This document shows positions 50,101-64,000 of a stretch of 64,000 bases of DNA, piece after piece. A program made the position numbers and the translations under genes. Source of the stretch: Pseudomonas sp. ACM7 (GTDB lineage Bacteria > Pseudomonadota > Gammaproteobacteria > Pseudomonadales > Pseudomonadaceae). The stretch covers positions 636,327-700,326 of the forward strand of contig NZ_CP024866.1 of NCBI RefSeq assembly GCF_004136015.1. The letters run 5' to 3'. Each line of letters begins with the position of its first letter. The stretch's first letter is position 1. The notes below the pieces were generated by a model. It made no database searches. It was not told the origin of the DNA and was given only the letters and a program-made list of their open reading frames with translations.

Positions 50101-51878
50101 TAAGCACCACCGGCCTTGAGTACCGCGAGCAACGCGACCAACAAACTGTCGGAACGCTGCATCGCCACGCCGACCCGGACTTCCGGGCCGACACCCAATT
50201 CGATCAGCCTGTGGGCCAGGCGATTGGCCTGATTGTCGAGCTCGGCGTAAGTCAGCTGCTTCGTGGCAAAGGTCACCGCCAACGCAGTCGGGTTCGCGGC
50301 GACTTGCTGGCTGATCAGCTCATGAATGCACAAGGTCTGCGGGAAGCTTTCGTCAGCGCGATTCCAGTCATGCACGATGCGCTGGTATTCGGCGCTCTCC
50401 AGCAGCGGCAAATCACTGATGCGTTGCTGCGAATCACCGACCATGCCCTGCAGCAAATGCGTCCAGTGCTGCGCCATGCGCGCGATGGTCGCGGCGTCGA
50501 ACAGGTCGTTGGCGTAGGTCAGCGCGGCGTGCAGCTTGCCGCGCTTTTCATTGGTGTTGAGGTCATAAGTATCGAGGGTCAGATCAAACTGGGTGGTGCG
50601 CCCTTCCCACTCGATCACGCCCAGCGCCAGACCGGACGCGGTGCTGACCGTGGAAATGTCCGCGACTTGCGGCTGGTGGTTGTACATCACCTGGAACAGC
50701 GGCGTGTGGCTGAGGCTGCGCTCCAGTTTCAGCGCCTCGACCAGGCGCTCGAACGGCAAATCCTGATGGGCCTGGGCACCGAGGGCGGTTTCCTTGATGG
50801 CGCGCAGCAGGTCGTCGACGCGGGTCTGGCCGTCGAGCTGGGTGCGCAGCACCTGGGTGTTGACGAAGAAGCCGATCAGGCCTTCGATCTCGGCGCGGTT
50901 GCGGTTGGCGATCGGCACGCCGACGCGAATGTCGATCTGCCCGGTGTAACGGTGCAGCAGCGCGTTGAAGGCGCCGAGCAACAGCATGAACAGGGTGATG
51001 TTGTGTTTCTGCGCCGTGGCCCGCAGTTGTTCGGCCAACTGACCGTCGACGGCGAACTCGTAACGGGTGCCGCGATAGCTCGGCATCGCCGGGCGCGGAT
51101 GATCGGCAGGCAGTTCCAGCACCGGGTGCTCGTCGCCCAGTTGCGTCTGCCAGTAGTCGAGTTGACGCGCCTGCTCGCCGGCCTCCAGCCATCGGCGTTG
51201 CCACAACGCGTAGTCGCTGTACTGGATCGGCAATGGCGCGAGTTGCGGTTGTGCGCCCGCTTCAAAGGCGTCGTAGCAGCGGATGAACTCGTCGATCAGC
51301 ACGTTCATCGACCAGCCATCGGAAACGATGTGGTGCAAGGTCAGCAAGAGGACGTGTTCCTGCTCGGCGAGTTTGAGCAAGGTGACGCGCAGCAATGGGC
51401 CGGTTACCAGATCAAACGGCAGCACCGATTGCTGCTCGGCCGCTTGGGCGACTGCTTGCTCGCGTTCAATGACCGGCAACGCGCTGAAATCCACCTGATC
51501 GATGATCAGCGGCGCGCTGGCCGGTACTTGCAGCAACGTGTCGTCGGCCTGGCGCTGGAACACGGTGCGCAGGGTTTCGTGACGTTCAACGAGGCTGGCG
51601 AACGCTTGCTCCAGCGCTGACAGGTTCAAACGTCCGGTCAGACGCACCGCGCCCGGCAGGTTGTATGCGCCGCTGTGCGGGTCCAGCTGCCAGAGAAACC
51701 ACATGCGCTGCTGGGCGTACGACAACGCCTGGCGATCGTCGGCTTCGACGCCGGCAGGAATGGGAAACCGGGCGAAATCAACGCCTTCCTTTTGCAAGGC
51801 CGCAAGGAACATCTGGCGCTTTTCCAGGGGCAACCCGATAAACCGGCGAGCAAGTTTCAAGGAGTCTTCAGCATTCAT
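40890..51878 (-). CDS. pvdI: Pyoverdine NRPS receiving the chain from PvdL (C-A-T-E-C-A-T-C-A-T)
   Basis: 3662 residues, three modules. Approximate order: C 45-480, A 520-960, T ~1051, E 1095-1530, C (DCL) 1555-1985, A 2010-2460, T ~2541, C (LCL) 2595-3030, A 3050-3500, T ~3596. Pockets predict Ala, Lys and Thr, with the first epimerised. The first C domain has the LCL-type start SYAQQRMWFLWQLDPHSG, consistent with accepting the L-diaminobutyrate end of the PvdL product. There is no loading module or terminal TE; the chain passes to the next protein, whose start codon overlaps this stop. A variant iron-starvation box lies 55-77 bases upstream. The symbol is positional: pvdI or pvdJ could be used. 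Confidence 0.92.
44140..47260 (-). other. NRPS module 2: C(DCL)-A(Lys)-T
   Basis: Pocket residues D-G-E-D-H-G-T-V-V, read from FDGFVEQCF, VADLPAAY, VHVGGEAM and NTYGPTEATVV, fit the lysine code known from pyoverdine synthetases. The carrier is GGHSLL and no epimerase follows, so L-Lys is expected. The C domain opens DLYPLSPMQQGMLFH. Confidence 0.75.
47275..51878 (-). other. NRPS module 1: C(LCL)-A(Ala-like)-T-E
   Basis: Pocket residues D-L-W-N-N-A-L-T-Y, read from FDLSVWELF, LINTVPSA, INLAGEPL and DLYGPSEDTTY, resemble the alternative alanine code (DLFNNALTY) with W in third place. A small residue, most likely Ala, is predicted. GGDSI carrier and an E domain (HHLAVDGVSWRVL) give the D form. 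Confidence 0.6.
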
Positions 51879-51932
51879 TTCTTAGCATCCGGATCAGTGG
51901 CGGGAAGCACAAAGGCACGTCGTCCCTATAAA

Positions 51933-51955
51933 ACGAATGCAGACCGGAAAAATTA
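51933..51955 (-). promoter_or_regulatory. Variant iron-starvation box before the NRPS operon
   Basis: On the minus strand TAATT (51955-51951), 15-base spacer, CGT (51935-51933). It differs from the exact boxes elsewhere in sequence and spacing. An overlapping Fur-like stretch AATGAGAACAAGTATCA lies at 51959-51975. Confidence 0.45.
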
Positions 51956-51958
51956 GCG

Positions 51959-51975
51959 AATGAGAACAAGTATCA
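51959..51975. promoter_or_regulatory. Fur-like site upstream of the NRPS operon
   Basis: AATGAGAACAAGTATCA partly matches the Fur consensus. It is weaker than the fpvI and fpvA sites. Confidence 0.3.
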
Positions 51976-52016
51976 GAAAGGAGGGGTATGGCGAGGATAG
52001 TGAGGTGACCCATGAC

Positions 52017-52127
52017 CCCTGTGTGCGAGCTTGCTCGCGATAGGGCCATGACAGGCGACATAGATGTTGACTATCCGGCCGCCATCGTCGGAACGCCGCC
52101 CGGAGCAAGCTCGCTCCCACAGGGGGT
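52017..52127. repeat. REP doublet with variant arm between the thioesterase and NRPS genes
   Basis: The left arm has GTGTGCGAGC in place of GTGGGAGCGAGC. The right arm carries the GCCGCCCGGAGC variant also seen at 25111-25150 and 61893-61930. Confidence 0.8.
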
Positions 52128-52142
52128 GAGTGATGTTCGGGT

Positions 52143-52877
52143 TTAGCTGACCGCCATCAACCCATGCCGCCGATGATGAACGTCCAGCTGATCCTTGATC
52201 ACCCGCAACACCTTGGCTTCGTGCTCGTGGATAAAGAAGTGTCCGCCAGCGAGCATGTCCACCGAAAAGCTACCGTGGGTTTCCTTGCTCCAACCGATCA
52301 ACTGTTCGGTGGTGGCGCGATCAGCCTTGCCGCCGAGCGCGTGAACCGGGCACTTGAGCAAGGGACGCTGCTGCGGCTCGAAGCGCCCGCATAGGAGAAA
52401 GTCCGCACGCAGGACCGGCAGCGTCAGGCTCATCAGCTCTTCGTTGGCCAGCACCTCTTCACTGGTGCCGTTGAGGGTGCGCAATTGTTCGATCAGTTCG
52501 GCATCGGTTTTGGGCTCGGCGAAACCCCGATCGTAGTCGGCACGCAGGGTCGGTGCGGCGGTGCCCGAAGCGAACAGCGCCACCGGTTCCGGGCAGCCGA
52601 GCGAGCGAAACGCATGGGCCATCTCACAGGCGAGCAACGCGCCAAGGCTATGGCCAAACAGCGCATACGGCGCCTTGAGCGTGGCTTTTTGTTCTTGCGC
52701 CAGTTGCAGCGCCAAGCGTCGCATGTCGGTGTGCAAGGGTTCGCCAAACCGGGCGCCACGCCCCGGAAGTTCCACGGGTTGCAGCTTGAGCCACTCCGGC
52801 AGTTTGCGTCGCCAGCGGCTATAGACCATGGCACTCGCGCCCGAATAGGGCAGGCAGAGCAATGTCAGCTGGGTCAC
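52143..52877 (-). CDS. pvdG: Type II thioesterase of the pyoverdine NRPS (PvdG-like)
   Basis: 244 residues of the GrsT/RifR thioesterase family: LCLPYSGASAMVYSRWR near the start, PVELPGRGARFGEP, the nucleophile in FGHSLGALLA (about residue 95) and the catalytic histidine in LAGGHFFIHEH. Such enzymes clear misprimed carrier proteins. It begins with GTG at 52877 behind GAGGTAAACCCG. It precedes the NRPS operon on the same strand with a REP doublet between, and has its own TAATT-N16-CGT box. In P. aeruginosa, pvdG sits with pvdL and pvdS instead, so its position here may indicate a different linkage. Confidence 0.82.
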   Translation of the reverse strand: MTQLTLLCLPYSGASAMVYSRWRRKLPEWLKLQPVELPGRGARFGEPLHTDMRRLALQLAQEQKATLKAPYALFGHSLGALLACEMAHAFRSLGCPEPVALFASGTAAPTLRADYDRGFAEPKTDAELIEQLRTLNGTSEEVLANEELMSLTLPVLRADFLLCGRFEPQQRPLLKCPVHALGGKADRATTEQLIGWSKETHGSFSVDMLAGGHFFIHEHEAKVLRVIKDQLDVHHRRHGLMAVS

Positions 52878-52910
52878 CGGGTTTACCTCGAAAAGTTGTC
52901 TGTTAAGAGA

Positions 52911-52934
52911 ACGGATGAGGTCGGTCTTGAATTA
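52911..52934 (-). promoter_or_regulatory. Variant iron-starvation box before the thioesterase gene
   Basis: On the minus strand TAATT (52934-52930), 16-base spacer, CGT (52913-52911), about 35 bases before the GTG start. Only the fourth base of TAAAT differs. Confidence 0.6.
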
Positions 52935-52946
52935 GTCGAAGATCCA

Positions 52947-53040
52947 AATGTGGGAGCGGGCTTGCTCGCGAATGCGGTGTGTCAGTCAACGTTGATGTTG
53001 TTTGACCCACCGCATTCGCGAGCAAGCCCGCTCCCACATT
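52947..53040. repeat. REP doublet between the thioesterase and MFS genes
   Basis: AATGTGGGAGCGGGCTTGCT and its complement form long 33-base arms that also include the flanking CACCGCATT, around a ~28-base centre. Confidence 0.9.
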
Positions 53041-53046
53041 TATTCA

Positions 53047-54219
53047 TCATTTCAAGTGGCGGAAGCTTTGCACCGCCGATCCGAGGACCACGGCACCAGC
53101 CGCAATCGCCACCCAGAACCCGCTACGCGCTCCAAATGCATCCACCAGCCACCCGGAACTGGCCGCACCAATCGCCACACCAATGCTCAACCCGGTCACC
53201 AGCCAGGTCAGGCCTTCAGTGAGTTTGGCCGGCGGCACGATGCGCTCCACCAACGCCATCGCCACAATCAGCGTCGGCGCAAAGAACAACCCGGCGACGA
53301 ACACCGCCAGCGACAGCCCGAGAATGTTCGTTGCCAGCAGCAACGGCAGCGTGGTCACCGCCGTCGCCACCCCGCCGTACAGGAACAGTTGCGGCAACGG
53401 CAGTTTCGAGCGCAACGCCCCGAACGCCAAACCGGCCAGGCACGAACCGATGGCATACACCGACAACACAATGCTCGCCGCCGCCGGCTGGCCCTGCTGC
53501 TGGGCGAACGCCACGCTGACCACATCCACCACGCCGACGATGGTGCCCATGGCGACCATCAACAGCATCAGTAACTGAATCTCGCTGGAACGAATGATCG
53601 AGGCCTGATGATGGTCTTCATGAGGATGAATCGCCGGCTCGGTGTCACGTTGCAGCACAAACGCCGTCACCCCGATCGCCAGCATCAGCAACGCCGCCAA
53701 CGGCCCGGCCTCGGGGAATGCCACCACGCACAACCCCACTGACAGTGGCGGCCCGACAATAAAACAGACCTCGTCCAGCACTGACTCCAGCGCATAAGCG
53801 GTTTGCAGCGCTGGCTGGCCGCGATACACCTCGGTCCAGCGCGCCCGCACCATCGCCGACATGCTCGGCATGCAACCGGCTAACGCTGCGAACACAAATA
53901 ACGTCCACTGCGGCGCCTGCAAGCGAGTGCAAAGCAACACCAGCAACAACGCCCCGCCACCGATCAGTGCCGACACCGGCAAGATCCGACGCTGCCCGAA
54001 ACGGTCCACCAGCCGCGAAACCTGCGGCGCACAAAACGCCGTGGCCAGGGCAAACGTCGCCGTCACGGCGCCGGCCAGTCCATAGCCACCCTGCAATTGC
54101 GAGAGCATGGTGATCAGGCCGATGCCGGTCATGGAAATCGGCATGCGCGCGATCATCCCGGCCAGCACAAAAGCGCTGCTGCCTGGGGCTTTGAACAGTT
54201 CGCGGTAGGGGTTTGCCAT
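53047..54219 (-). CDS. MFS transporter
   Basis: 390 residues with about twelve hydrophobic segments and the MFS loop motif RLVDRFGQRRILPVSA between helices 2 and 3. A central charged loop contains HPHEDHHQ. Substrate is unknown; sugar-efflux and drug-efflux families share this form. The ATG at 54219 is preferred to the upstream in-frame start because the hydrophobic core begins just after it. It lies beside the pyoverdine genes but has no PvdS box, so membership in the regulon is doubtful. Confidence 0.85.
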   Translation of the reverse strand: MANPYRELFKAPGSSAFVLAGMIARMPISMTGIGLITMLSQLQGGYGLAGAVTATFALATAFCAPQVSRLVDRFGQRRILPVSALIGGGALLLVLLCTRLQAPQWTLFVFAALAGCMPSMSAMVRARWTEVYRGQPALQTAYALESVLDEVCFIVGPPLSVGLCVVAFPEAGPLAALLMLAIGVTAFVLQRDTEPAIHPHEDHHQASIIRSSEIQLLMLLMVAMGTIVGVVDVVSVAFAQQQGQPAAASIVLSVYAIGSCLAGLAFGALRSKLPLPQLFLYGGVATAVTTLPLLLATNILGLSLAVFVAGLFFAPTLIVAMALVERIVPPAKLTEGLTWLVTGLSIGVAIGAASSGWLVDAFGARSGFWVAIAAGAVVLGSAVQSFRHLK

Positions 54220-54302
54220 GGTTCGGGGTCTCAACAAGGGCCTGCAAGTTGCCATAAACGCTGACAGAGGGGATAGCGGCTAATTGTTGGTTGAATGTGA
54301 AG

Positions 54303-54406
54303 GCCCCTTCGCGAGCAAGCCCGCTCCCACATGGGTTCTCGGCCATGCATAAAATTTGTGTACACCAAAAATCTATTGTGGGAGCGGGCTTGCTCGCGAA
54401 GGGGCC
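54303..54406. repeat. REP doublet between the divergent MFS and GH15 genes
   Basis: CCCCTTCGCGAGCAAGCCCG and its inverted copy with a ~50-base spacer. Confidence 0.9.
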
Positions 54407-54554
54407 CGCAGAGACGACCCCCTTTTCCGCCAAATGAACTCTCTACCGCTCAAACCAGTCAGCTAGTTAAGCCCTTTACTCGAGGCCTTAATCCTCATGC
54501 AGATTTCCCTCGCCCAACAAGTAGCCCTGAGCCTTTATCCGGAGTTTCACGGCA

Positions 54555-56381
54555 ATGGCTGATCATCATCCCGAACGACAAAGCGCTATCGATGCCCACG
54601 GCATCATCGGCGACATGCGCAGCGCGGCACTGGTCAATGACAAGGGCAGCGTGGATTTTTTCTGCTGGCCGGAATTCGACAGTCCGTCGATCTTCTGCTC
54701 GCTGCTGGACACGCCCGAGGCCGGGATTTTCCAACTGTCACCGGATTTACCCGACGCTCGCCGCGAGCAGATTTACCTGCCTGACACCAATGTGCTGCAA
54801 ACCCGTTGGCTCAGCGACCGCGCAGTCGTCGAAGTCACCGACCTGCTGCCCATCGGCGACAGCGAAGATGCCACGCCGGTGCTGATGCGCCGGGTTCGTG
54901 TAGTCAGCGGCCAGGCAACGTTTCACATGCGCTGCGCCGTGCGCCATGACTACGCTCGCGCCAAGACCCGCGCACGCATGGATGAAAAGGACGTGACCTT
55001 CGAGGCCGCCAATCAGCCGTCCCTGCGCCTGTCTTCGGACCAGGTTCTACGTATCGACGGCCATGCGGCAGTCGCCGAATTCACCCTCGAACAGGACCAG
55101 AGCGCCGAATTCATGCTTGGCGGTATCGACGATCCGCGATTCAAGGAAGGCGCCGCCACCATCTGCCTGGAACGGACCCTGAAGTTCTGGCGCGACTGGA
55201 TCGGCCAATCCAACTATCGCGGCCGCTGGCGGGAGATGGTCAATCGCTCGGCCCTGGCGTTGAAGCTGCTGACCTCGCGCAAACACGGCGCGATCCTCGC
55301 CGCCGCCACGTTCGGCCTGCCGGAAACGCCTGGCGGCGTGCGCAACTGGGACTACCGCTACACGTGGATCCGCGACGCCTCGTTCACCGTCTATGCGTTC
55401 ATGCGCCTGGGCTTCGTTCAGGAAGCCAATGATTACATGCGCTGGTTGCGCGGGCGGGTCAGCGATTGCCACGGAAAACCGATGAAACTGAACATCCTCT
55501 ATGCCATCGATGGCCGCCAGGAATTGCCGGAAACCGAACTCTCGCACCTCTCCGGTCATGGCGACGCGACACCGGTACGGATCGGCAATCAGGCTTACGA
55601 CCAGGTCCAACTCGACATCTTCGGCGAACTGATGGACGCGGTGTACCTGGTCAACAAATACGGTGACGCCATCTCCCATGAAGGCTGGAAACACGCTGTG
55701 GAGGTGGTCGATCAGGTCTGTGAAACCTGGGAGCAAAAGGACGTCGGCATCTGGGAAATGCGCGGCGAGCAGCATCACTTCCTGCACTCGCGGCTGATGT
55801 GCTGGGTCGCACTGGACCGGGCCATTCGCCTCGCCTCAAAACGCTCACTGCCCGCCCCGTTCGCCCGCTGGGACCAGACCCGACAGGCGATCTACGCTGA
55901 CATCTGGGAAAACTTCTGGAACGAAGAACGCGGGCACTTCGTCCAGTACATCGGCGGTACCGCGCTGGATGGCTCGATGCTGCTGATGCCGCTGGTGCGC
56001 TTCGTCAGCGCCAAAGACCCGCGCTGGCTCGCGACCCTCGACGCCATCGAAAAGAACCTGGTACGCGACGGCATGGTTTACCGCTATCGCAATGACGACA
56101 CCCGAATCGACGGCCTCGACGGCACCGAAGGCGCCTTCGCCGCGTGCTCATTCTGGTACGTCGAATGCCTGGCCCGCGCCGGCCGGGTGGAAAAGGCGCA
56201 TCTGGAATTTGAACAGTTGCTGAGGTACGCCAACCCACTGGGGTTGTACGCCGAAGAGTTCGACAGCCATGCGCGGCATCTGGGGAATACGCCGCAAGCG
56301 CTGACGCATTTGGCACTGATCAGTGCGGCCAGTTTCCTGGATCGGAAATTGAGTGGGGAGAAGAGTTTCTGGCAGCCGTGA
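54555..56381 (+). CDS. Glycoside hydrolase family 15 protein (glucoamylase/trehalase-like)
   Basis: 608 residues. The N-terminal beta-sandwich (about 1-220, IIGDMRSAALVNDKGSVDFFCWP) is followed by the (alpha/alpha)6 barrel (about 230-600) with GVRNWDYRYTWIRDASFT and GTEGAFAACSFWYVECL typical of bacterial GH15. No signal peptide is seen, so it acts in the cytoplasm on an alpha-glucan or trehalose-type substrate. The ATG follows GGAG. Divergent from the MFS gene. No partner glucan genes are visible. Confidence 0.9.
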   Translation: MADHHPERQSAIDAHGIIGDMRSAALVNDKGSVDFFCWPEFDSPSIFCSLLDTPEAGIFQLSPDLPDARREQIYLPDTNVLQTRWLSDRAVVEVTDLLPIGDSEDATPVLMRRVRVVSGQATFHMRCAVRHDYARAKTRARMDEKDVTFEAANQPSLRLSSDQVLRIDGHAAVAEFTLEQDQSAEFMLGGIDDPRFKEGAATICLERTLKFWRDWIGQSNYRGRWREMVNRSALALKLLTSRKHGAILAAATFGLPETPGGVRNWDYRYTWIRDASFTVYAFMRLGFVQEANDYMRWLRGRVSDCHGKPMKLNILYAIDGRQELPETELSHLSGHGDATPVRIGNQAYDQVQLDIFGELMDAVYLVNKYGDAISHEGWKHAVEVVDQVCETWEQKDVGIWEMRGEQHHFLHSRLMCWVALDRAIRLASKRSLPAPFARWDQTRQAIYADIWENFWNEERGHFVQYIGGTALDGSMLLMPLVRFVSAKDPRWLATLDAIEKNLVRDGMVYRYRNDDTRIDGLDGTEGAFAACSFWYVECLARAGRVEKAHLEFEQLLRYANPLGLYAEEFDSHARHLGNTPQALTHLALISAASFLDRKLSGEKSFWQP

Positions 56382-56549
56382 GAGCACCTCGCCACAGGTT
56401 TGTGTAGCCCGAAGTCCTGCACTGCTTAAACAAAACCTGCATCCACCGCCGGAAAATCCTTTGTTGCCAGCCGTTACATCCATCCCTACCATCCACCGTC
56501 AACGGGTACAGCGGAGCTGTCCAACAAAACCCGAATTCAAGGAACCAGA

Positions 56550-56939
56550 ATGACCCAGCGCATCCACCGCAGCATCGACGCCCCACTCCGGTCAGGTCTG
56601 AACCGGGATGAATTGTGGGAAGGCCAGGACAAGGGCCTGATCAAATGCTGGGAGATCGGCCGCCAACGCGCCGCCCGTTTCCCCGAACTCGCCCAACGCT
56701 GCCTTGCCGGCGAACTTCCGGTGCTGGGCTGGAAAGGTGGCGTCAGCCGCAGCCTGAAGAAACTCGAAAAATACGGATCCCTCAAGTACCTCGCTCAGTG
56801 GCAAGGGTTACGCGGGGAAGATCTGGATGTTGATTTGGGTGAAGAACGGGCGTTGACCTGTTCGCGGACCAACATGGTGGTGACGTTTACGCCGGATCGG
56901 TCGAAGTACTTCAATCAAGTGGCGGAAGTGGAAGTCTAG
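56550..56939 (+). CDS. Hypothetical protein, 129 residues
   Basis: Starts at ATG 56550 behind AAGGAACCAG. Basic and hydrophilic, with no signal peptide or membrane helix. Notable segments are RDELWEGQDKGLIKCWEIGRQ and KKLEKYGSLKYLAQW. I do not recognise a family. Codon use resembles its neighbours, and the good ribosome site makes it a real gene. It lies between the GH15 and hydrolase genes on the same strand, 34 bases before the latter. Confidence 0.7.
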   Translation: MTQRIHRSIDAPLRSGLNRDELWEGQDKGLIKCWEIGRQRAARFPELAQRCLAGELPVLGWKGGVSRSLKKLEKYGSLKYLAQWQGLRGEDLDVDLGEERALTCSRTNMVVTFTPDRSKYFNQVAEVEV

Positions 56940-56973
56940 GAATTAGGCAAATACAACCTCTCTGGAGTATCGA

Positions 56974-57876
56974 ATGAACAATGAAGCGCTGATCCACTTC
57001 ACCCAAACTCCAGGTTTGTCGCTCGCCTATGAAGAACACGGCCCCACCACCGGCGAAGCCGTCATCCTCCTCCACGGCTTCCCCTACTCCCCCCGCGCCT
57101 ACGACGAAATCGCCCCGACCCTCGCCGCCAAGGGCTACCGCGTCATCGTCCCGTACCTGCGCGGTTACGGCCCGACCCGTTTCAACCACCCCGACACCCT
57201 GCGCTCCGGACAACAAGCCGCCCTCGCTCAGGATTTGCTGGAGCTGATGGATGCGCTGGCGATTAAACAAGCTGCCCTGTGCGGCTACGACTGGGGCGGT
57301 CGGGCGGCGTGCATCGTGGCGGCGCTATGGCCCGAGCGGGTTCGTTGCCTGGTGACCGGCGACGGTTACAACCTTCAGGACATTCCCCATTCCACCGAAC
57401 CGTTGGACCCGGAAACCGAGCACCGCCTCTGGTATCAGTACTACTTCCACACGCCACGCGGCGTCGAAGGCCTGACGAAAAATCGCCGGGCCTTGTGCGA
57501 ACTGCTCTGGAAGTTGTGGTCACCCACCTGGACCAAAGGCCCTGAGTTGTATCCGTCAAGTGCACCGGCCTTCGATAATCCGGATTTCGTCGAGGTGGTG
57601 ATTCACTCCTACCGCCACCGGTTCATGTACGCGCCCGGCGACCCGGCGCTGGAGTGGATCGAAGAAGCGCTGACCCGACAGCCGCCGATCAGCGTACCGA
57701 CGATTTCCCTGTGCGGTGCCGACGATGGCGTCGGACCGACACCGGAGATAGACGAAGACATCACCCATTTCACCGGGTGTTATGAGCGGCGAGTGTTGGC
57801 GGGCGTCGGGCATAACATTCCCGAAGAAGCGCCCGAGGCAACGCTCAGAGCGTTACTGGATCTGCTGGAGGGCTGA
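56974..57876 (+). CDS. Alpha/beta hydrolase (haloalkane dehalogenase/epoxide hydrolase-like)
   Basis: 300 residues. HGFPYSPRAYDEIAPTL with the HG oxyanion loop, LRGYGPTRF, and the nucleophile elbow GYDWGGRAA with aspartate (about residue 106) in place of serine point to the epoxide hydrolase/dehalogenase branch. The catalytic histidine is likely in GVGHNIPEEAPE near the C-terminus. Substrate unknown. It converges with the GlxA-type regulator gene, overlapping it by 32 bases. Confidence 0.85.
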   Translation: MNNEALIHFTQTPGLSLAYEEHGPTTGEAVILLHGFPYSPRAYDEIAPTLAAKGYRVIVPYLRGYGPTRFNHPDTLRSGQQAALAQDLLELMDALAIKQAALCGYDWGGRAACIVAALWPERVRCLVTGDGYNLQDIPHSTEPLDPETEHRLWYQYYFHTPRGVEGLTKNRRALCELLWKLWSPTWTKGPELYPSSAPAFDNPDFVEVVIHSYRHRFMYAPGDPALEWIEEALTRQPPISVPTISLCGADDGVGPTPEIDEDITHFTGCYERRVLAGVGHNIPEEAPEATLRALLDLLEG

Positions 57877-58828
57877 CGCTGAAACGCTCGCGATAGGCCT
57901 GCGGGGTCACGCCCATGGCCCGCAGAAAGCTGCGTCGAAGCGTCTCTTCGCTGCCGAAACCGCATTGCACCGCCACCCGTTTGATCGGCACGCCGGTATC
58001 GCTGAGCAAACGTCGGGCGGTCTCGACCCGAATCAGTTCGATGGCCCGGGCCGGAGTCTGGCCGGTGTCAGCGCGGTAATGGCGGACGAAGCTGCGTTCG
58101 CTCATGCCGGCCTGCAAGGCCAGGGTCGGGATGCCCAAGTCCTTGGTGAGGTTTTCACTGATCCAGGCATGAAGTTCGTCGAAACGGTTGCCTTCCTTTT
58201 GCAAAGAAAGGGTGACGCTGAACTGCGACTGGCCGCCGGGGCGTTTCAGGAACACTACCAGTTGCCGCGCGACTTCCAGGGCCATCGTGCGGCCAAGATC
58301 TTCTTCGACCATGGCCAGCGCAAGGTCGATGCCAGCGGTGACCCCGGCCGAGGTCCAGACCGGGCCGTCATTGATGAAAATCGGATTGGGCTCAACCTGC
58401 AGCCGCGGATGCTGCTGCGCCAACTGCTCGCAACGAGTCCAGTGAGTGACCACCCGCCGGCCATCGAGCCAGCCGCTGGCCGCCAGCAAAAATGCCCCGG
58501 TGCACACCGACGATACTCGCCGACACCCCGTCGCGTGTTCACGTACCCACGCCACCAGCGGTTCGTCTTGCGCCGCGTCGTAAACGCCCCAGCCACCGGC
58601 AATGATCAAGGTGTCACTACCCTCTTCAGGCAACGGCTCGGCCAACAGCGCCAGCCCCGCCGACGACATCACCGCCCCGCCACCGCTGGCAATCACCGAC
58701 GGCGCATAAGGTGGCGGAAAACCTTGCTGGCGGGAAATATCGTTGGCCGAGGCGAACACCTGCAATGGCCCGGTGACGTCGAGCAGTTGCACATTGGCAA
58801 AGGCGAGCACGTGAATGGTTTTCGGCAT
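57845..58828 (-). CDS. GlxA-family transcriptional regulator (DJ-1/PfpI plus AraC HTH)
   Basis: 327 residues. The N-terminal half (about 1-190) is a class I glutamine amidotransferase-like domain with VSSVCTGAFLLAASG. The C-terminal half carries two AraC-type helix-turn-helix units (IPTLALQAGMSERSFVRHYRADTG and IKRVAVQCGFGSEETLRRSF). Such proteins are transcription activators, often of the gene divergent to them, which here encodes an isonitrile hydratase of the same DJ-1 superfamily. I chose ATG 58828 (MPKTIHVLAFANV). Confidence 0.9.
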   Translation of the reverse strand: MPKTIHVLAFANVQLLDVTGPLQVFASANDISRQQGFPPPYAPSVIASGGGAVMSSAGLALLAEPLPEEGSDTLIIAGGWGVYDAAQDEPLVAWVREHATGCRRVSSVCTGAFLLAASGWLDGRRVVTHWTRCEQLAQQHPRLQVEPNPIFINDGPVWTSAGVTAGIDLALAMVEEDLGRTMALEVARQLVVFLKRPGGQSQFSVTLSLQKEGNRFDELHAWISENLTKDLGIPTLALQAGMSERSFVRHYRADTGQTPARAIELIRVETARRLLSDTGVPIKRVAVQCGFGSEETLRRSFLRAMGVTPQAYRERFSVSPPADPVTL

Positions 58829-58918
58829 GATTGGCGTAATTCGTGGGGTTATTGGCGTATACGCCAAATCCTACGAGCCTAAAGTGAAGTCGTCCACCCA
58901 CTTCATGAGAAAAATGCC

Positions 58919-59614
58919 ATGGCGTTGCAGATCGGTTTTCTGTTGTTTCCACAGGTTCAGCAACTGGACCTCACCGGCCCTTACGACGTACTGGCCTCGC
59001 TGCCGGACGTGAAGGTGCATTTGATCTGGAAGGACCTGATGCCCGTTACCGCAAGCACGGGCCTGGTGCTGAAACCGACCACCACGTTCGACGATTGCCC
59101 GCAGCTGGATGTCATCTGCATTCCCGGCGGCAGTGGCGTCGGGCCGTTGATGGAAGATGAAGAGACGCTGGCCTTCATCAAGGAGCAAGCCGCCAAAGCG
59201 CGTTACGTCACGTCGGTGTGTACCGGCGCGCTGGTGCTCGGTGCGGCGGGTCTGCTGAAGGGTAAACGCGCCACCACTCACTGGGCTTATCACGAATTGC
59301 TGGTGCCTTTGGGGGCGATCCCGGTAAAGGATCGGGTGGTGCGCGACGGCAATCTTCTAACCGGTGGCGGGATCACCGCGGGCATCGATTTTGCCCTGAC
59401 CCTGGCCGCGGAGCTGTTCGATAAGGACACGGCAGAGCTGGTGCAGTTGCAGCTCGAATACGCCCCGGCACCGCCGTTTACGTCGGGCAGTCCTGAGACG
59501 GCTCCGGTCAGTGTGCTGGAGGAAGCCCGCAAACGTGCCGCCGGGTCATTGAAACTGCGCTCGGAAATCACCGAGCGTGTAGCGGCGAAACTCGACCGGG
59601 CGTCAGTACGTTGA
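58919..59614 (+). CDS. inhA: Isonitrile hydratase (DJ-1/PfpI superfamily)
   Basis: 231 residues. It matches the residues reported for Pseudomonas isonitrile hydratase: Asp17 in QLDLTGP, Cys101-Thr102 in TSVCTGALV. The enzyme hydrates isonitriles to N-substituted formamides in the cytoplasm. It is divergent from the GlxA-type regulator gene with a 90-base shared gap. The natural isonitrile source is unknown. Confidence 0.88.
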   Translation: MALQIGFLLFPQVQQLDLTGPYDVLASLPDVKVHLIWKDLMPVTASTGLVLKPTTTFDDCPQLDVICIPGGSGVGPLMEDEETLAFIKEQAAKARYVTSVCTGALVLGAAGLLKGKRATTHWAYHELLVPLGAIPVKDRVVRDGNLLTGGGITAGIDFALTLAAELFDKDTAELVQLQLEYAPAPPFTSGSPETAPVSVLEEARKRAAGSLKLRSEITERVAAKLDRASVR

Positions 59615-59670
59615 TCCATTCCTCGGCGCAGCCAGCGGCCGACTGCATCGAGGACTTTCCATCGCCCACA

Positions 59671-59693
59671 AAAAAACCCGCCTAAGCGGGTTT
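59671..59693 (-). terminator. Terminator of RsmX-like copy 2
   Basis: AACCCGC TTA GGCGGGTT stem-loop followed by seven T on the minus strand. Confidence 0.85.
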
Positions 59694-59783
59694 CTCAAGA
59701 CCATTGCGACATCCTGTCAGCAGCCATCCGGGCCTATGGTCGATCATCCGTGATCCTGAGTGCATCCTGCGACTCAGTTGATG
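59671..59783 (-). ncRNA. rsmX: RsmX-like regulatory RNA, second copy
   Basis: On the minus strand a ~113-base region carries five GGA motifs, four in hairpin loops: GCAGGATGC inside CUGAGU/ACUCAG, GATCACGGATGATC, GCCCGGATGGC and GACAGGATGTC. A conserved long-range GACCAU/AUGGUC pairing encloses the last two. It ends in a terminator AAACCCGCTTAGGCGGGTTT followed by a T-run (59671-59693). A TAATCT -10-like box lies at 59789-59794 and a TGTAAG half-site at 59839-59844. These are the marks of Gac/Rsm sRNAs that titrate CsrA/RsmA. Ends are estimated. Confidence 0.8.
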
Positions 59784-59788
59784 GAGCC

Positions 59789-59844
59789 AGATTAAACACA
59801 TCGGTGACGCATCAAAAGACGACATACCCGTCAACGGGTGTAAG
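59789..59844 (-). promoter_or_regulatory. Promoter and GacA half-site of RsmX-like copy 2
   Basis: TAATCT at 59794-59789 (minus strand) and the CTTACA half of the GacA upstream activating sequence (TGTAAG on the plus strand, 59839-59844), 44 bases apart. The second half-site is poorly conserved. Confidence 0.5.
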
Positions 59845-59883
59845 CCTTTGGCCACTCGAGTCCTGAAGCGAATTTCAGCAGGC

Positions 59884-59910
59884 GAAAAAAAACCCGCCGA
59901 AGCGGGTTTT
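59884..59910 (-). terminator. Terminator of RsmX-like copy 1
   Basis: AACCCGC TTCG GCGGGTT stem with a stable tetraloop and an eight-T tail on the minus strand. Confidence 0.9.
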
Positions 59911-60000
59911 CCCAAGACCATTACGACTCCCTGTCGGCAGCGATTCCTTGCTTATGGTCGATCATCCATGATCCCGAGCACTTCCTGTGCTTCGGTTGAT
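59884..60000 (-). ncRNA. rsmX: RsmX-like regulatory RNA, first copy
   Basis: On the minus strand a ~117-base region with five GGA motifs. Perfect hairpins are AGCAC-AGGAA-GUGCU, GAUCA-UGGA-UGAUC and CGAC-AGGGA-GUCG, with AGC-AAGGAAUC-GCU as a looser fourth. The GACCAU/AUGGUC closing pair is conserved with copy 2, and it ends in AACCCGCTTCGGCGGGTT plus eight T. The helices are kept while their sequences differ between copies, which argues for selection on structure. Ends are estimated from the -10-like box at 60007-60012. Confidence 0.82.
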
Positions 60001-60006
60001 GAGGCT

Positions 60007-60062
60007 AGATTACGCTTCGGATCCAATCCGCAATAGAAGACATAGCTACCATCGCGTGTAAG
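60007..60062 (-). promoter_or_regulatory. Promoter and GacA half-site of RsmX-like copy 1
   Basis: TAATCT at 60012-60007 and CTTACA (TGTAAG on the plus strand, 60057-60062), separated by 44 bases as in copy 2. On the plus strand TGTAAG-ACATTC-GCTATA loosely fits TGTAAG-N6-CTTACA. Confidence 0.5.
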
Positions 60063-60152
60063 ACATTCGCTATACCAGCCCTTCCGAAAACCCTTAGGTC
60101 ACTCAGGTATTACGCATAGAGGCCGTTTCAGCCAAGGTTAGACAGGCAGCCA

Positions 60153-60641
60153 TCACTCTTCCTGACGCTCGCGCGCCTTGGCACTGACTTTGAGAAACTC
60201 TTCGATGTTGTTCATCTGTTCATCCCAACCGCGGCTGTCCATGCGGAACGCCTTGAGCCGGCGCGTCTGAGGGATGTGATCGAAACCGGACTCGGTGACC
60301 TTGAGTAACGTGCCTTCAACCATGTCTTCGAGCTCGAACTTCACCAGCGTGGTGGGTTCCAGGGAGTAATCGAGCTCAGGCTCCACGGCATACGGGTGCC
60401 AGCGAAACGAAAACACCCGTTCGGGTTCGACCCGCTCCACCAGTACGTTCCACATTAAGTGTTCATAACCCGGGTACGTAATCTGCCCCTGGGTCCATTC
60501 ACCGGCGACAAAACGCTTGCCCTCCAGCGCCACGCCAAACCACTGTCCGAAGGCTTCGGCATTGGCCAGCACACGCCAGACCTGCGAGCGCGGCGTTTTG
60601 AGCAGGATCTTCCTTTCGATGCGATCTGATGCTGGATTCAT
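60153..60641 (-). CDS. SRPBCC (AHSA1/START-like) protein
   Basis: 162 residues with the typical start IERKILLKTPRSQVWRVLANAEAFGQWFG, the central VERVEPERVFSFRWHP and the C-terminal GWDEQMNNIEEFL. The fold binds hydrophobic ligands; the specific ligand is unknown. The ATG at 60641 follows a strong AGGAGGTGAC site. Genes of this type are often next to an ArsR-type regulator, but none is present here. Confidence 0.85.
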   Translation of the reverse strand: MNPASDRIERKILLKTPRSQVWRVLANAEAFGQWFGVALEGKRFVAGEWTQGQITYPGYEHLMWNVLVERVEPERVFSFRWHPYAVEPELDYSLEPTTLVKFELEDMVEGTLLKVTESGFDHIPQTRRLKAFRMDSRGWDEQMNNIEEFLKVSAKARERQEE

Positions 60642-60798
60642 AAGTCACCTCCTGTACTGAACAGTAGGCCTGTAAGACCACAAGACCAACCCTAAAGTTG
60701 TATCAATCGGGTATCGCAATCAACCCTGTACGAAATATTCAGCTGCATTTCCAAGTGTAACTGCTGGTTTGAAAACAAAACGAGTAGACCGAAACTGC

Positions 60799-60948
60799 TC
60801 GCCATTGTTGGCTGGGGCTCATTACAGTGTGCAGGGCATTCCCGACAGTTGGCTGGAGAAGTTACATTTGCGTGAAGACATCGAAGCCACGGCTGACGCT
60901 TTACTGCGGGCAGCCACCCTCACGCAATCAGGAGCACGCGATGAATAG
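60799..60948 (+). pseudogene. Remnant of the C-terminus of an ADP-ribosylglycohydrolase gene
   Basis: One plus-strand frame reads LLAGAHYSVQGIPDSWLEKL followed by REDIEATADALL and a stop at 60946-60948. This resembles the final helices of the DraG/ADP-ribosylglycohydrolase family (AGAxYGxxGIPxxWxxKL). The preceding frame carries AIVG in a shifted phase and nothing upstream encodes the rest. The remnant ends inside the first codons of the GFA gene. Confidence 0.5.
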
Positions 60949-61426
60949 CCTGCATGGCAGCTGTTTGTGTAAAGCCATCGAATACGAAGTCGATAGCCTC
61001 GACATGCCCATCAGTCATTGTCACTGCCAAACCTGTCGCAAGGCACACGCTGCGGCATTCGCCTCGACAGCCGGGGTCATGCGTGAACATTTTCGCTGGA
61101 CCAAAGGTCAGGGCCATCTGAATAGCTACGAATCGTCGCCGGGCAAGCTTCGGTATTTCTGTTCGGTTTGCGGTTCACACTTGATGGCTGAGCGCCTGGT
61201 CCAACCCCACGTCATTGTTCGTGTGGCGACATTGGACGATGACCCGAAAATGACGCCGCAAGCGCATATCTGGACGTCACATGATGTGCCGTGGCTCAAA
61301 TACGACTCGATCGAAAATTACCCTGAATGGCAGGCAAAGCCAGGCCAATACGTAGCGCTACACTGCCCCCAACTTTCCACGTCAAAGCGAGAATCCCCAT
61401 GCACCCACGCTTTCTTCTGGCACTGA
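60941..61426 (+). CDS. GFA-family (glutathione-dependent formaldehyde-activating-like) protein
   Basis: 161 residues. Zinc-binding cysteines are in GSCLCKAIEYE, ISHCHCQTCRKAH and YFCSVCGSHL, the standard Mss4-like/GFA pattern. The ATG at 60941 follows AGGAG; a longer upstream reading overlaps the pseudogene remnant. Function in this family is usually unknown despite the name. Its 3' end overlaps the next gene by 28 bases. Confidence 0.85.
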   Translation: MNSLHGSCLCKAIEYEVDSLDMPISHCHCQTCRKAHAAAFASTAGVMREHFRWTKGQGHLNSYESSPGKLRYFCSVCGSHLMAERLVQPHVIVRVATLDDDPKMTPQAHIWTSHDVPWLKYDSIENYPEWQAKPGQYVALHCPQLSTSKRESPCTHAFFWH

Positions 61427-61800
61427 CGCCTCTGCTGTTCACTACCGCTGCTTATGCGGTGGACTGCGACAACGCCGCCGATCAGGCGACGATGAATCAG
61501 TGCGCGGCGCAGCAGCACAAGACGGCGGACAAGGAGTTGAATGCGCTTTACCAGCAGATCAACGAGCGCTTGAAGAGCAACCCCGAAAGCAAAAAGCTGC
61601 TGATCGGGGCGCAGCGTTCGTGGATTGCGTTTTGGGATGCCGAGTGCAAGTTCTCGAGCGTCGGAGTGGAAGGCGGGAGTGTGTATCCGCTGATCTACAG
61701 CAACTGTGTTACTGAGTTGACCAAGGCACGGGTGGAGACTTTCAAGAATTATTTGAAGTGTCAGGAGGGGGATTTGACTTGTCCGGTGCCTGGGGCTTGA
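61399..61800 (+). CDS. LprI-like (DUF1311) secreted protein
   Basis: 133 residues. Signal peptide MHPRFLLALTPLLFTTAAYA, then CDNAADQATMNQCAAQQHKTADKELNALYQQI with conserved cysteines, and RSWIAFWDAECKF, as in lysozyme-inhibitor LprI-type proteins. It should be periplasmic. The start lies inside the end of the GFA gene; the choice rests on the signal peptide. Confidence 0.8.
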   Translation: MHPRFLLALTPLLFTTAAYAVDCDNAADQATMNQCAAQQHKTADKELNALYQQINERLKSNPESKKLLIGAQRSWIAFWDAECKFSSVGVEGGSVYPLIYSNCVTELTKARVETFKNYLKCQEGDLTCPVPGA

Positions 61801-61823
61801 TGATTCAGTGCTTGTAAGGGCCT

Positions 61824-61930
61824 CATCGCGAGCAAGCTCGCTCCCACAGTGGTTTTCGGTCATACACAAATTGTGTGTTCACCGACGACCTACTGTGGGA
61901 GCGGGCTTGCTCCGGGCGGCGATCCGACGA
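61824..61930. repeat. REP doublet with variant arm between the LprI-like and amine dehydrogenase genes
   Basis: Left arm ATCGCGAGCAAGCTCGCTCC; right arm GTGGGAGCGGGCTTGCTCCG followed by GGCGGCGATCCGAC, the same variant as at 25111-25150 and 52085-52127. Confidence 0.85.
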
Positions 61931-61953
61931 AGGCGCCAGTTCAGGCACCGAGG

Positions 61954-63072
61954 TTATCGAACAAATATCTGCGCGGTGGTGATCGCCATATCCCCACCCG
62001 GCAACTTGATGCTGCCAATCTGCTTCATGCTCTCGGGATCAAAGATCGCCACATCGTTAAACGTCCCCGCCAGATAAATCTTGCTGCCGTCCTTGTTGAA
62101 CGAAATGCAGTAGTAGGAATGATCCAGCGTCGCCGCCTGGAGCATTTTCTTCTCCTTGATGTCGTACTTCGCCAAACGGTTGAGCACGCCAAACATCAGG
62201 TTCGGGTCCTTCGGTGAGCGCATGCCGCTGAAGTAGATTTCCGTCAGCGGGCCGAAGTCGGTGGTTTCGGTCTTGCCGGTTTTCAGGTCGATGCTGAACA
62301 GCCCATAGAGGTACTCGGCGGTCAACGGGTCCTGATTCTTGTCCTTGAATTTCGCGGCGGTGTAGAGCAGCGAGAAGTCATGGCGATAAGTCTGCTGGTT
62401 CCACACGTAAAGCACGTCCGGTGCGCTGTAGCCCGGGCGTTTCCAATGACGGCTGGGGATCAGCACGTCGAACTTGCCGGTTTTCACATCGACCTTGTAG
62501 ACGTCCGCCCCCGCCACATACAGCGTGCCGTCGTCACCGCTCTGCATGATCGTCAATTGCCGTGGCGCCGGGAAACTGCGCACGGGTTTGGCGTCCATGC
62601 CGGCGTCGGTGGCGTAAACATCAAGCCGAGGCTGCTGCACTTCATAACGGTCGTTGAGCATCAACGTCGGGTTGGCGATGGTGAACAACTCCTTACCGTC
62701 GTGGCTGAGGGTGAAGGCGAACATGGACCTCGCTTTCTCCCCCGGTTTCTGGGTGATGCTGGCGTGGAACACCTGTTTACAGCTGTCGAGTTCGACGCCA
62801 TAGACATCCGCGTAGTGGTTGTTCAGCACGTAAGCGGTCTTGCGGTCCGGCGACAACTGCACGGTGCCGGGACCGAAGGCATCCGGCATTTTGCAGGTCT
62901 TGAACAAGGTGTCGGTGACCACGTCGATGACGTGCAGGTTGTTCGGGTAATTGGTGGTCAACATGTACTCGTGACCATCTTGTAGAGCAGTGTTTTCATC
63001 GGCCAGAACAGTGAGCGAACACACGCTCAGGACGGCGAACGCGGTCAGGCCGCAGGCTTTGATGCGATGCAT
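61954..63072 (-). CDS. qhpB: Quinohemoprotein amine dehydrogenase beta subunit
   Basis: 372 residues. Signal peptide (LTAFAVLSVCSLTVLADE) followed by a seven-bladed beta-propeller with repeats such as TTNYPNNLHVIDVVTDT, GTVQLSPDRKTAYVLNN and SKIYLAGTFNDVAIFDPESM. The beta subunit packs with the diheme alpha and quinone-bearing gamma subunits in the periplasm. The enzyme oxidises primary amines to aldehydes and ammonia. ATG 63072 follows AAGGATTCC. It is the last gene of the qhpD-qhpC-qhpB order on the minus strand; the Pseudomonas name is peaD. Confidence 0.9.
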   Translation of the reverse strand: MHRIKACGLTAFAVLSVCSLTVLADENTALQDGHEYMLTTNYPNNLHVIDVVTDTLFKTCKMPDAFGPGTVQLSPDRKTAYVLNNHYADVYGVELDSCKQVFHASITQKPGEKARSMFAFTLSHDGKELFTIANPTLMLNDRYEVQQPRLDVYATDAGMDAKPVRSFPAPRQLTIMQSGDDGTLYVAGADVYKVDVKTGKFDVLIPSRHWKRPGYSAPDVLYVWNQQTYRHDFSLLYTAAKFKDKNQDPLTAEYLYGLFSIDLKTGKTETTDFGPLTEIYFSGMRSPKDPNLMFGVLNRLAKYDIKEKKMLQAATLDHSYYCISFNKDGSKIYLAGTFNDVAIFDPESMKQIGSIKLPGGDMAITTAQIFVR

Positions 63073-63097
63073 GCTGGAATCCTTCTTCTCTGTCCGA

Positions 63098-63421
63098 TTA
63101 CTTGTCTTTTGGAAAGACAGTCCCGAGGTTGCGCCAGTTTTCATTGGACGCCTGGGCATCCTTGTTCCAGTCCGGGTAGGTGCTCATCATGTCGGGCACC
63201 TGGGCCGGCCACCAGCAAGGGTCGGAGCAGCCGTAAAGGTCGGCTTCCATCGGCTGGCACAGCGACGACACACCGCCAAACGCATCGATTTCCCAACCCG
63301 GGTCGGTGGTCGAGGCGCAGCCAGCGACGGAACTCATCGCCACCACTTCTTCGATGCGGTTTTCGCCCGCGGCCTCATCGAGTTTCAGCGCTTTATTATT
63401 GATTGCCTTGAGATGTTTCAT
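63098..63421 (-). CDS. qhpC: Quinohemoprotein amine dehydrogenase gamma subunit (CTQ precursor)
   Basis: 107 residues, the expected size. A leader of about 28 residues (ending near EEVVAMS) precedes a cysteine-rich core with [40 protein letters not shown]. These hold the cysteines for thioether cross-links and the Cys-Trp pair for cysteine tryptophylquinone. The radical SAM protein encoded just upstream forms the cross-links. The start is one base after the stop codon of that gene (TGATATG arrangement). Confidence 0.92.
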
Positions 63422-63422
63422 A

Positions 63423-64000
63423 TCAGTGAGCCTTGCGCGGAGTGATGTAGCTGCTGATAAACGCAGGGTTGTGGGCCATGATCCGGGTGTAGACCTCGAT
63501 GCCGAAGTCGACCCAGTCACGCATCAGTTCGCAGTAGTGATAGGTCGGGTGGGTCGGGTCGCCGTAACGGGCATAGCTCTCGTGGTAGCAGCCGCCGGAG
63601 CAGAGATTGCGGATCTGGCAGTCTTCGCAGCCGGTGTTGGTGCGGTCCAGGCGCTGGGACAGGAAGTCGTTCAACTCGACCTGTTTCACCCCACTGTGGA
63701 CGTTGCCGAAGGTCGGTAGGCTCGAGCCGGTAAAGCGGTGGCACAGGTTCAATTCACCCTTGTGATCCACCGCCAGCATCTTCAGACCCGCACCGCAGGG
63801 CAGGGCTTTTTTGTGGCCTTCGTGGATGTCGGTGATCAGCTGGTGCAGGTTGGAGAAACCGATGTTGCGGTGCTCCAGCGCCGCTTCCAGATAACGCCGG
63901 CCGAGTTTCTTCATGTTGGCGAAGACTTCGATCAGCTCGTCGCTGGACAGGTTGAAGGTGCTGATGTCGCCGGAGGTCACCGGTGCAAAGCCAACCTCGG
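63423..64000 (-). CDS. qhpD: Radical SAM maturase of quinohemoprotein amine dehydrogenase, N-terminus cut by window edge
   Basis: Only the C-terminal ~192 residues are present; the frame is open to the right edge. Cysteine motifs of the SPASM region are visible: [24 protein letters not shown], then [18 protein letters not shown] and YHYC. These bind auxiliary Fe-S clusters. QhpD (PeaB) forms the Cys-Asp/Glu thioether cross-links in the gamma subunit. The CX3CX2C motif of the SAM cluster lies outside the window. Confidence 0.9.

Follow-up and report, generated by a model that had tools for sequence, protein, structure and literature searches.

A tandem pair of rsmX-type Gac/Rsm regulatory RNA genes in Pseudomonas sp. 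ACM7

The window, which is the whole stretch of 64,000 nucleotides of Pseudomonas sp. ACM7 DNA that was analyzed, contains two genes for small RNAs of the RsmX family, positioned between the genes of an SRPBCC-domain protein and of a DJ-1/PfpI family protein (Table 1). Both RNA genes are on the minus strand and are arranged head-to-tail, as a preliminary description made from the sequence alone had proposed (the matches to the Rfam covariance model RF02144 run from 60000 to 59887 and from 59782 to 59671). The same description placed the copies about 215 bases apart, which is close to the distance between their starts (218 bases) and does not apply to the gap between them (104 bases). The lengths it proposed, about 113 and 117 bases, are corrected by the model matches to 114 and 112 bases.

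Table 1. Positions of the features of the tandem rsmX locus in the window
Feature	Position	Strand	Remarks
rsmX copy 1 (rsmX-1 type)	59887..60000	minus	114 nt; Rfam RF02144, 101 bits, model 1-114; 6 GGA
rsmX copy 2 (rsmX-2 type)	59671..59782	minus	112 nt; Rfam RF02144, 93.9 bits, model 1-114; 5 GGA
Terminator hairpin and U tract, copy 1	59887..59909	minus	Rfam structure line; fold; helix 6
Terminator hairpin and U tract, copy 2	59671..59693	minus	Rfam structure line; fold; helix 6
-10-like box TAATCT, copy 1	60007..60012	minus	ends 6 nt before RNA model start
-10-like box TAATCT, copy 2	59789..59794	minus	ends 6 nt before RNA model start
GacA-type upstream activating site, copy 1	60057..60074	minus	TATAGCGAATGTCTTACA; sequence-based, predicted
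GacA-type upstream site, copy 2	59839..59856	minus	AGTGGCCAAAGGCTTACA; left half different; sequence-based, predicted
AHSA1/SRPBCC-domain protein gene	60153..60641	minus	PF08327, 7.3e-12; upstream, co-directional; synteny anchor
DJ-1/PfpI family protein gene	58919..59614	plus	PF01965, 7.6e-32; downstream, convergent; synteny anchor

The assignment of the pair to the RsmX type is supported by the covariance model, which matches both copies across its whole length of 114 positions; the scores, 101 bits for copy 1 and 93.9 bits for copy 2, greatly exceed the gathering score of 56 bits. At the gathering thresholds, the two rsmX genes are the sole matches in the 64 kb window. A scan of positions 50000-64000 against Rfam at lax thresholds gave four other matches, all of them below gathering. 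Copy 1 and copy 2 agree in 93 of 114 aligned columns (81.6% identity); the 80-base regions upstream of them are 62.2% identical (51/82). The genome of ACM7, a single contig of 6.6 Mb, contains two rsmX genes according to a genome-wide scan with the model. A third candidate, a 54-base match at G000:C1:1001917-1001970 with 32.9 bits, stayed below the gathering score upon rescanning and was missed at an E-value of 1e-5 by a profile of related copies; it is therefore taken to be a chance match. A phage origin was looked for in a collection of phage sequences only, in which the region 59600-60200 has no match.

The two RNAs are predicted to fold better than most sequences of the same dinucleotide composition. 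The z scores against dinucleotide shuffles are -3.34 for copy 1 and -3.71 for copy 2, and one of 200 shuffles of copy 1 and none of 200 of copy 2 fold as well. Five GGA motifs had been counted in each copy; this number is correct for copy 2, and copy 1 has six. The motifs are found mostly in hairpin loops, as previously noted: in each copy, the structure lines assign four of them to loops and another to the point where helices 1 and 2 meet. The strong terminators noted at the same time are clear both in the family alignment and in the folds of the two copies. A simple terminator scan listed neither of them; we read this as the effect of a stem continuing into the T tract, but the scan gives the terminators no positive support.

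Both copies fold into the first hairpin, where there are two true paired changes (C-G to U-A and A-U to G-C). The stems AGCAC/GUGCU and CUGAGU/ACUCAG, which had been treated as equivalents, consist of different base pairs. In the register of the family, copy 2 breaks two pairs of this hairpin and folds slightly shifted. The closing sequences GACCAU/AUGGUC are present in both copies of the window as described, but they are not universal among the relatives: they occur in 27 of 40 first copies of pairs, in 31 of 39 single copies and in 28 of 29 window-type second copies. None of the 11 second copies of the P. brassicacearum type has them.

The structure was also compared with an alignment of 78 sequences, 68 of which are distinct. 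Among the 68 distinct relatives, 92.5% of the cells agree with the pairing of the Rfam structure, versus 28-43% when it is slid along the alignment. Because this structure is that of the family model, it has an advantage in the slide control, and the alignment is imperfect for the P. brassicacearum-type second copies. Helix 6 of the terminator is paired in 100% of the cells of the 68 distinct sequences, and seven of its eight pairs never vary. The covariation score is 0.097 compared to 0.066 for shuffled alignments, with none of 500 shuffles as high, and the cells changed on both sides number 45 compared to 16.9. The base pairs in which both sides change (6 versus 5.8 shuffled; 332 of 500 shuffles as high) and the further pair types (17 versus 16.2; 203 of 500) show no excess. 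The support from covariation is moderate, because the numbers of pairs with changes are no higher than in the shuffled alignments.

The -10-like box TAATCT named in the preliminary description is present in front of both copies. GacA-type upstream sites have the consensus TGTAAGN6CTTACA, and a TGTAAG/CTTACA half-site had been described 44 bases upstream of the box. The half CTTACA is indeed found at exactly 44 bases in both copies, whereas TGTAAG is absent. The left halves read TATAGC in copy 1 and AGTGGC in copy 2, agreeing with TGTAAG at three and two of the six positions, respectively, and the right half alone is intact. Two instances of the exact combination CTTACA-N44-TAATCT are found in the window, and 100 shuffles gave none. 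When the model start is used as a stand-in for the transcription start, CTTACA lies 56 bases upstream in both rsmX copies, nearly the distance seen for rsmY (57 bases). The copy 1 site resembles TATAGCGAAACGCTTACA, a query site given in PMC7911923. A simple scan for sigma-70-type promoters found none; we read this as a sign of weak -35 elements, and here too the scan gives the pair no positive support.

Two further candidate elements are located in these promoter regions. The simple scan lists a terminator-like hairpin with a T run on the minus strand within the promoter region of copy 2 (59818-59832; 0.3 expected in shuffles). In both copies, a TATGTCNTCT-like element lies downstream of the CTTACA half-site and ahead of the -10 box (59817-59826 and 60035-60044, minus strand) and is largely kept in the relatives; it could be the site of a further regulator.

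The partners of a Gac/Rsm system are encoded elsewhere in the genome. There are one rsmY gene (125.8 bits), one rsmZ gene (134.6 bits), three genes of the CsrA family and one GacA/UvrY-type regulator above the curated cut-off (316.2 bits, cut-off 280). A genome-wide scan for the palindrome with up to two mismatches gave 62 sites per strand, fewer than the 98 sites of a control pattern. The sole perfect site, TGTAAGN6CTTACA, precedes rsmY and ends 57 bases upstream of it, and one of the three sites with one mismatch lies 170 bases before rsmZ.

The relatives of the locus are the best 80 of 159 loci that encode a homolog of the SRPBCC protein, a non-random set chosen by similarity in which L074 and L075 represent one isolate. 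Pseudomonas sp. UYIF39, Irchel s3h14 and AL03, P. fluorescens H24 and P. mandelii OWC5 are among the nearest. In all 80 loci, rsmX is found downstream of the SRPBCC gene at a distance of 82-925 bases, which is within 400 bases in 69 of them. The DJ-1/PfpI neighbor is present in 65 of the 80, within 260 bases of the last rsmX in 55 and more than 1 kb away in 10. Two copies of rsmX are found in 38 loci, three in one and a single copy in 41. The contigs of three loci (L037, L064 and L074) end 0-113 bases past the single copy; with these counted out, 39 of the 77 uncut loci have at least two copies and 38 have one. When the 900 bases that follow the single copy in these 38 loci were searched for traces of another copy, one match with an E-value of 2.7 was obtained, and reversed controls gave three. 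Throughout the genus, rsmX matches are present in 336 of 398 genomes at E<=0.001 and above the cut-off in 234 of the 398. At least 19 genomes have two rsmX matches within 700 bases on a contig, as counted by eye among the matches listed.

Pairs have TATAGC as the left half of the upstream site in 32 of their 40 first copies; the same six bases are found in 32 of 39 single copies and in 8 of the 11 second copies of the P. brassicacearum type. Among the second copies of the window's type, AATGGT is found in 18 of 29 and TATAGC in none. The consensus of their sites is aaTGGtCAA.gGCTTACaC, and only one of the nine columns that come after it attains 70%.

A quick tree of the copies (164 rows, three rows dropped) places copy 2 of the window with other second copies, 34 rows being on that side of the branch (SH-aLRT 90, not starred); a starred set (97) consists of 15 of these rows, among them that of the window. 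Copy 1 is found among the first copies of the nearest relatives together with one single copy (SH-aLRT 86, no starred set), and its grouping with first copies appears less firm than that of copy 2 with second copies. Because the copies group by type, the duplication would predate the species. The pair thus looks older than the species of the window's clade, which includes strains named P. mandelii and P. frederiksbergensis, and it looks not to have been homogenized. The second copies of the P. brassicacearum/corrugata type form a group of their own (11 rows, SH-aLRT 100). The quick tree splits the two kinds of second copies, and a constraint that unites all 45 is not rejected, with an AU p value of 0.627 and a log-likelihood that is 7.42 higher. 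The pairs may derive from a single old duplication with later losses or from duplications that took place independently. Pairs with a distance of about 290-314 bases, L004-L012 among them, occupy a separate part of the tree, and our guess is that these genomes are relatives of P. syringae. The tandem rsmX-3 and rsmX-4 genes of the P. syringae pathovars are reportedly described in Moll et al. 2010.

The tandem arrangement is already published in relatives of ACM7, and the pair in the window is a further example, an ordinary one because of this earlier description. According to PMC7911923, rsmX-2 of P. brassicacearum NFM421 is in tandem with rsmX-1 and was characterized by Northern blot and 5' RACE. 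Its transcript is present in the wild type and absent from a gacA mutant, and its overexpression rescues the gacA phenotypes. The same paper lists tandem rsmX genes in P. fluorescens F113 (predicted), P. stutzeri and three P. syringae pathovars. The copies in NFM421 and F113 are 108-111 nt long and their starts are about 211-213 bases apart, compared to 218 in the window. In NFM421 each copy has a GacA-type upstream site and six GGA motifs, compared to six and five motifs in the window, and the identity between the copies is given as 75% versus 81.6% (PMC7911923). The fetched loci of the P. brassicacearum/corrugata type are situated downstream of the same SRPBCC gene as the window pair. Their 11 second copies, however, score lower against the family model (66.9-74 bits) and have TATAGC in 8 of 11 cases, whereas copy 2 of the window scores 93.9 bits and has AGTGGC. 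The rsmX-3 and rsmX-4 genes of P. syringae also form a tandem, with a distance of about 292 bases in DC3000, and the pathovars have five rsmX genes per genome (PMC7911923), whereas ACM7 has two. The rsmX RNA of P. protegens CHA0 belongs to the same family, is activated through GacA and sequesters RsmA and RsmE, but it is encoded by one copy instead of two (PMC7366521 and PMC7911923).

The analyses above show the genes, their predicted structure and promoter geometry, and the genes of the expected partners; they also show how far the duplication has spread and its relative age. With these observations, the pair almost certainly represents two rsmX paralogs that belong to the Gac/Rsm system; each would be activated by GacA and give RNAs that sequester proteins of the RsmA/CsrA family. 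The Gac/Rsm function that had been proposed from the sequence is supported by the Rfam scores, the partner genes in the genome and the published tandem of NFM421 (PMC7911923). Judging by the upstream sites and by that work, phosphorylated GacA would activate each copy at its own promoter. Each copy would then give rise to a separate RNA of about 112-114 nt, which ends at its own terminator. The RNAs would display their GGA motifs, mostly in hairpin loops, and would bind and sequester the RsmA/CsrA-family proteins, for which the genome has three genes; this is the general mechanism of Rsm RNAs (PMC7366521 and PMC2375449). Sequestration would relieve the translational repression of the target mRNAs. 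The second copy would raise the dosage of RsmX and may add a slightly different response. We infer that both copies are transcribed in ACM7, that they depend on GacA and that their RNAs bind RsmA.

Some of the observations would agree with copy 1 working alone under Gac and copy 2, its upstream site weakened, being a duplicate in decay. In copy 2 the right half-site alone is kept, with AGTGGC in place of TATAGC, and a terminator-like site lies within its promoter region. Furthermore, 38 of the 77 uncut loci have a single copy, and the remnants found after it are no better than the reversed controls. Nevertheless, copy 2 has kept a score of 93.9 bits, five GGA motifs, the TAATCT box, the 44-base spacing and the terminator. 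The sequences GACCAU/AUGGUC are held by 28 of the 29 second copies of the same type, and the upstream site is conserved among them, which speaks against decay, since decay would not yield conservation. In P. brassicacearum, rsmX-2 is functional (PMC7911923). Decay of copy 2 is therefore considered very unlikely.

A recent local duplication or an assembly repeat without biological meaning is hardly credible. Direct repeats can be assembly artefacts, and the contigs of L037, L064 and L074 end at or shortly past the first copy, but the copies and their upstream regions have diverged (81.6% and 62.2% identity), the pair is found in many separately assembled genomes, and the copies group mainly by type rather than by genome; this divergence and spread refute it. 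An RsmY-type or other GGA-rich identity is refuted by the scores and has practically no chance of being correct, as the weak matches to the RsmY model (41.1 bits for copy 2 and 30.9 bits for copy 1) are below its threshold of 57 and far below the RsmX scores of 93.9 and 101, and a strong rsmY (125.8 bits) is present elsewhere in the genome.

The tandem rsmX pair is real, correctly identified and probably functional. It is one well-supported locus more for a known theme in Pseudomonas, in which sponge RNAs of the Gac/Rsm system are amplified. Since the locus is common to related species that have one copy and related species that have two, gene dosage and the regulatory divergence of sister sponge RNAs are testable in this setting. 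The altered left half of copy 2, which is shared within the clade, may be a new detail; no report of this difference was found among the titles and abstracts listed by literature searches, which does not establish its absence from print. There is some chance, although a rather small one, that this changed and conserved left half, with which copy 2 has been kept in the window's clade, goes with a differing response to GacA or with an input from a second regulator. If true, this would mean a regulatory split between near-identical sponge RNAs.

Several other features of the related loci were observed. Pseudomonas sp. ANT_J12 has three rsmX genes in a row (L062:4405-5097), and the 80 bases preceding the third one have no CTTACA site and look like a different, repeat-like stretch. 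The first rsmX is separated from the SRPBCC gene by more than 800 bases in 11 loci (L041, L043, L046, L048, L049, L052, L053, L054, L062, L081 and L093) and by less than 400 bases in the other 69. The window has no rRNA at the gathering thresholds. In 13 loci (L074, L075, L078, L082, L085, L099, L100, L101, L103, L106, L108, L109 and L112), an rRNA operon ends upstream of the SRPBCC gene (with 5S and, in some of these loci, 23S as well), and L074 and L075 have five copies of 5S in a row.
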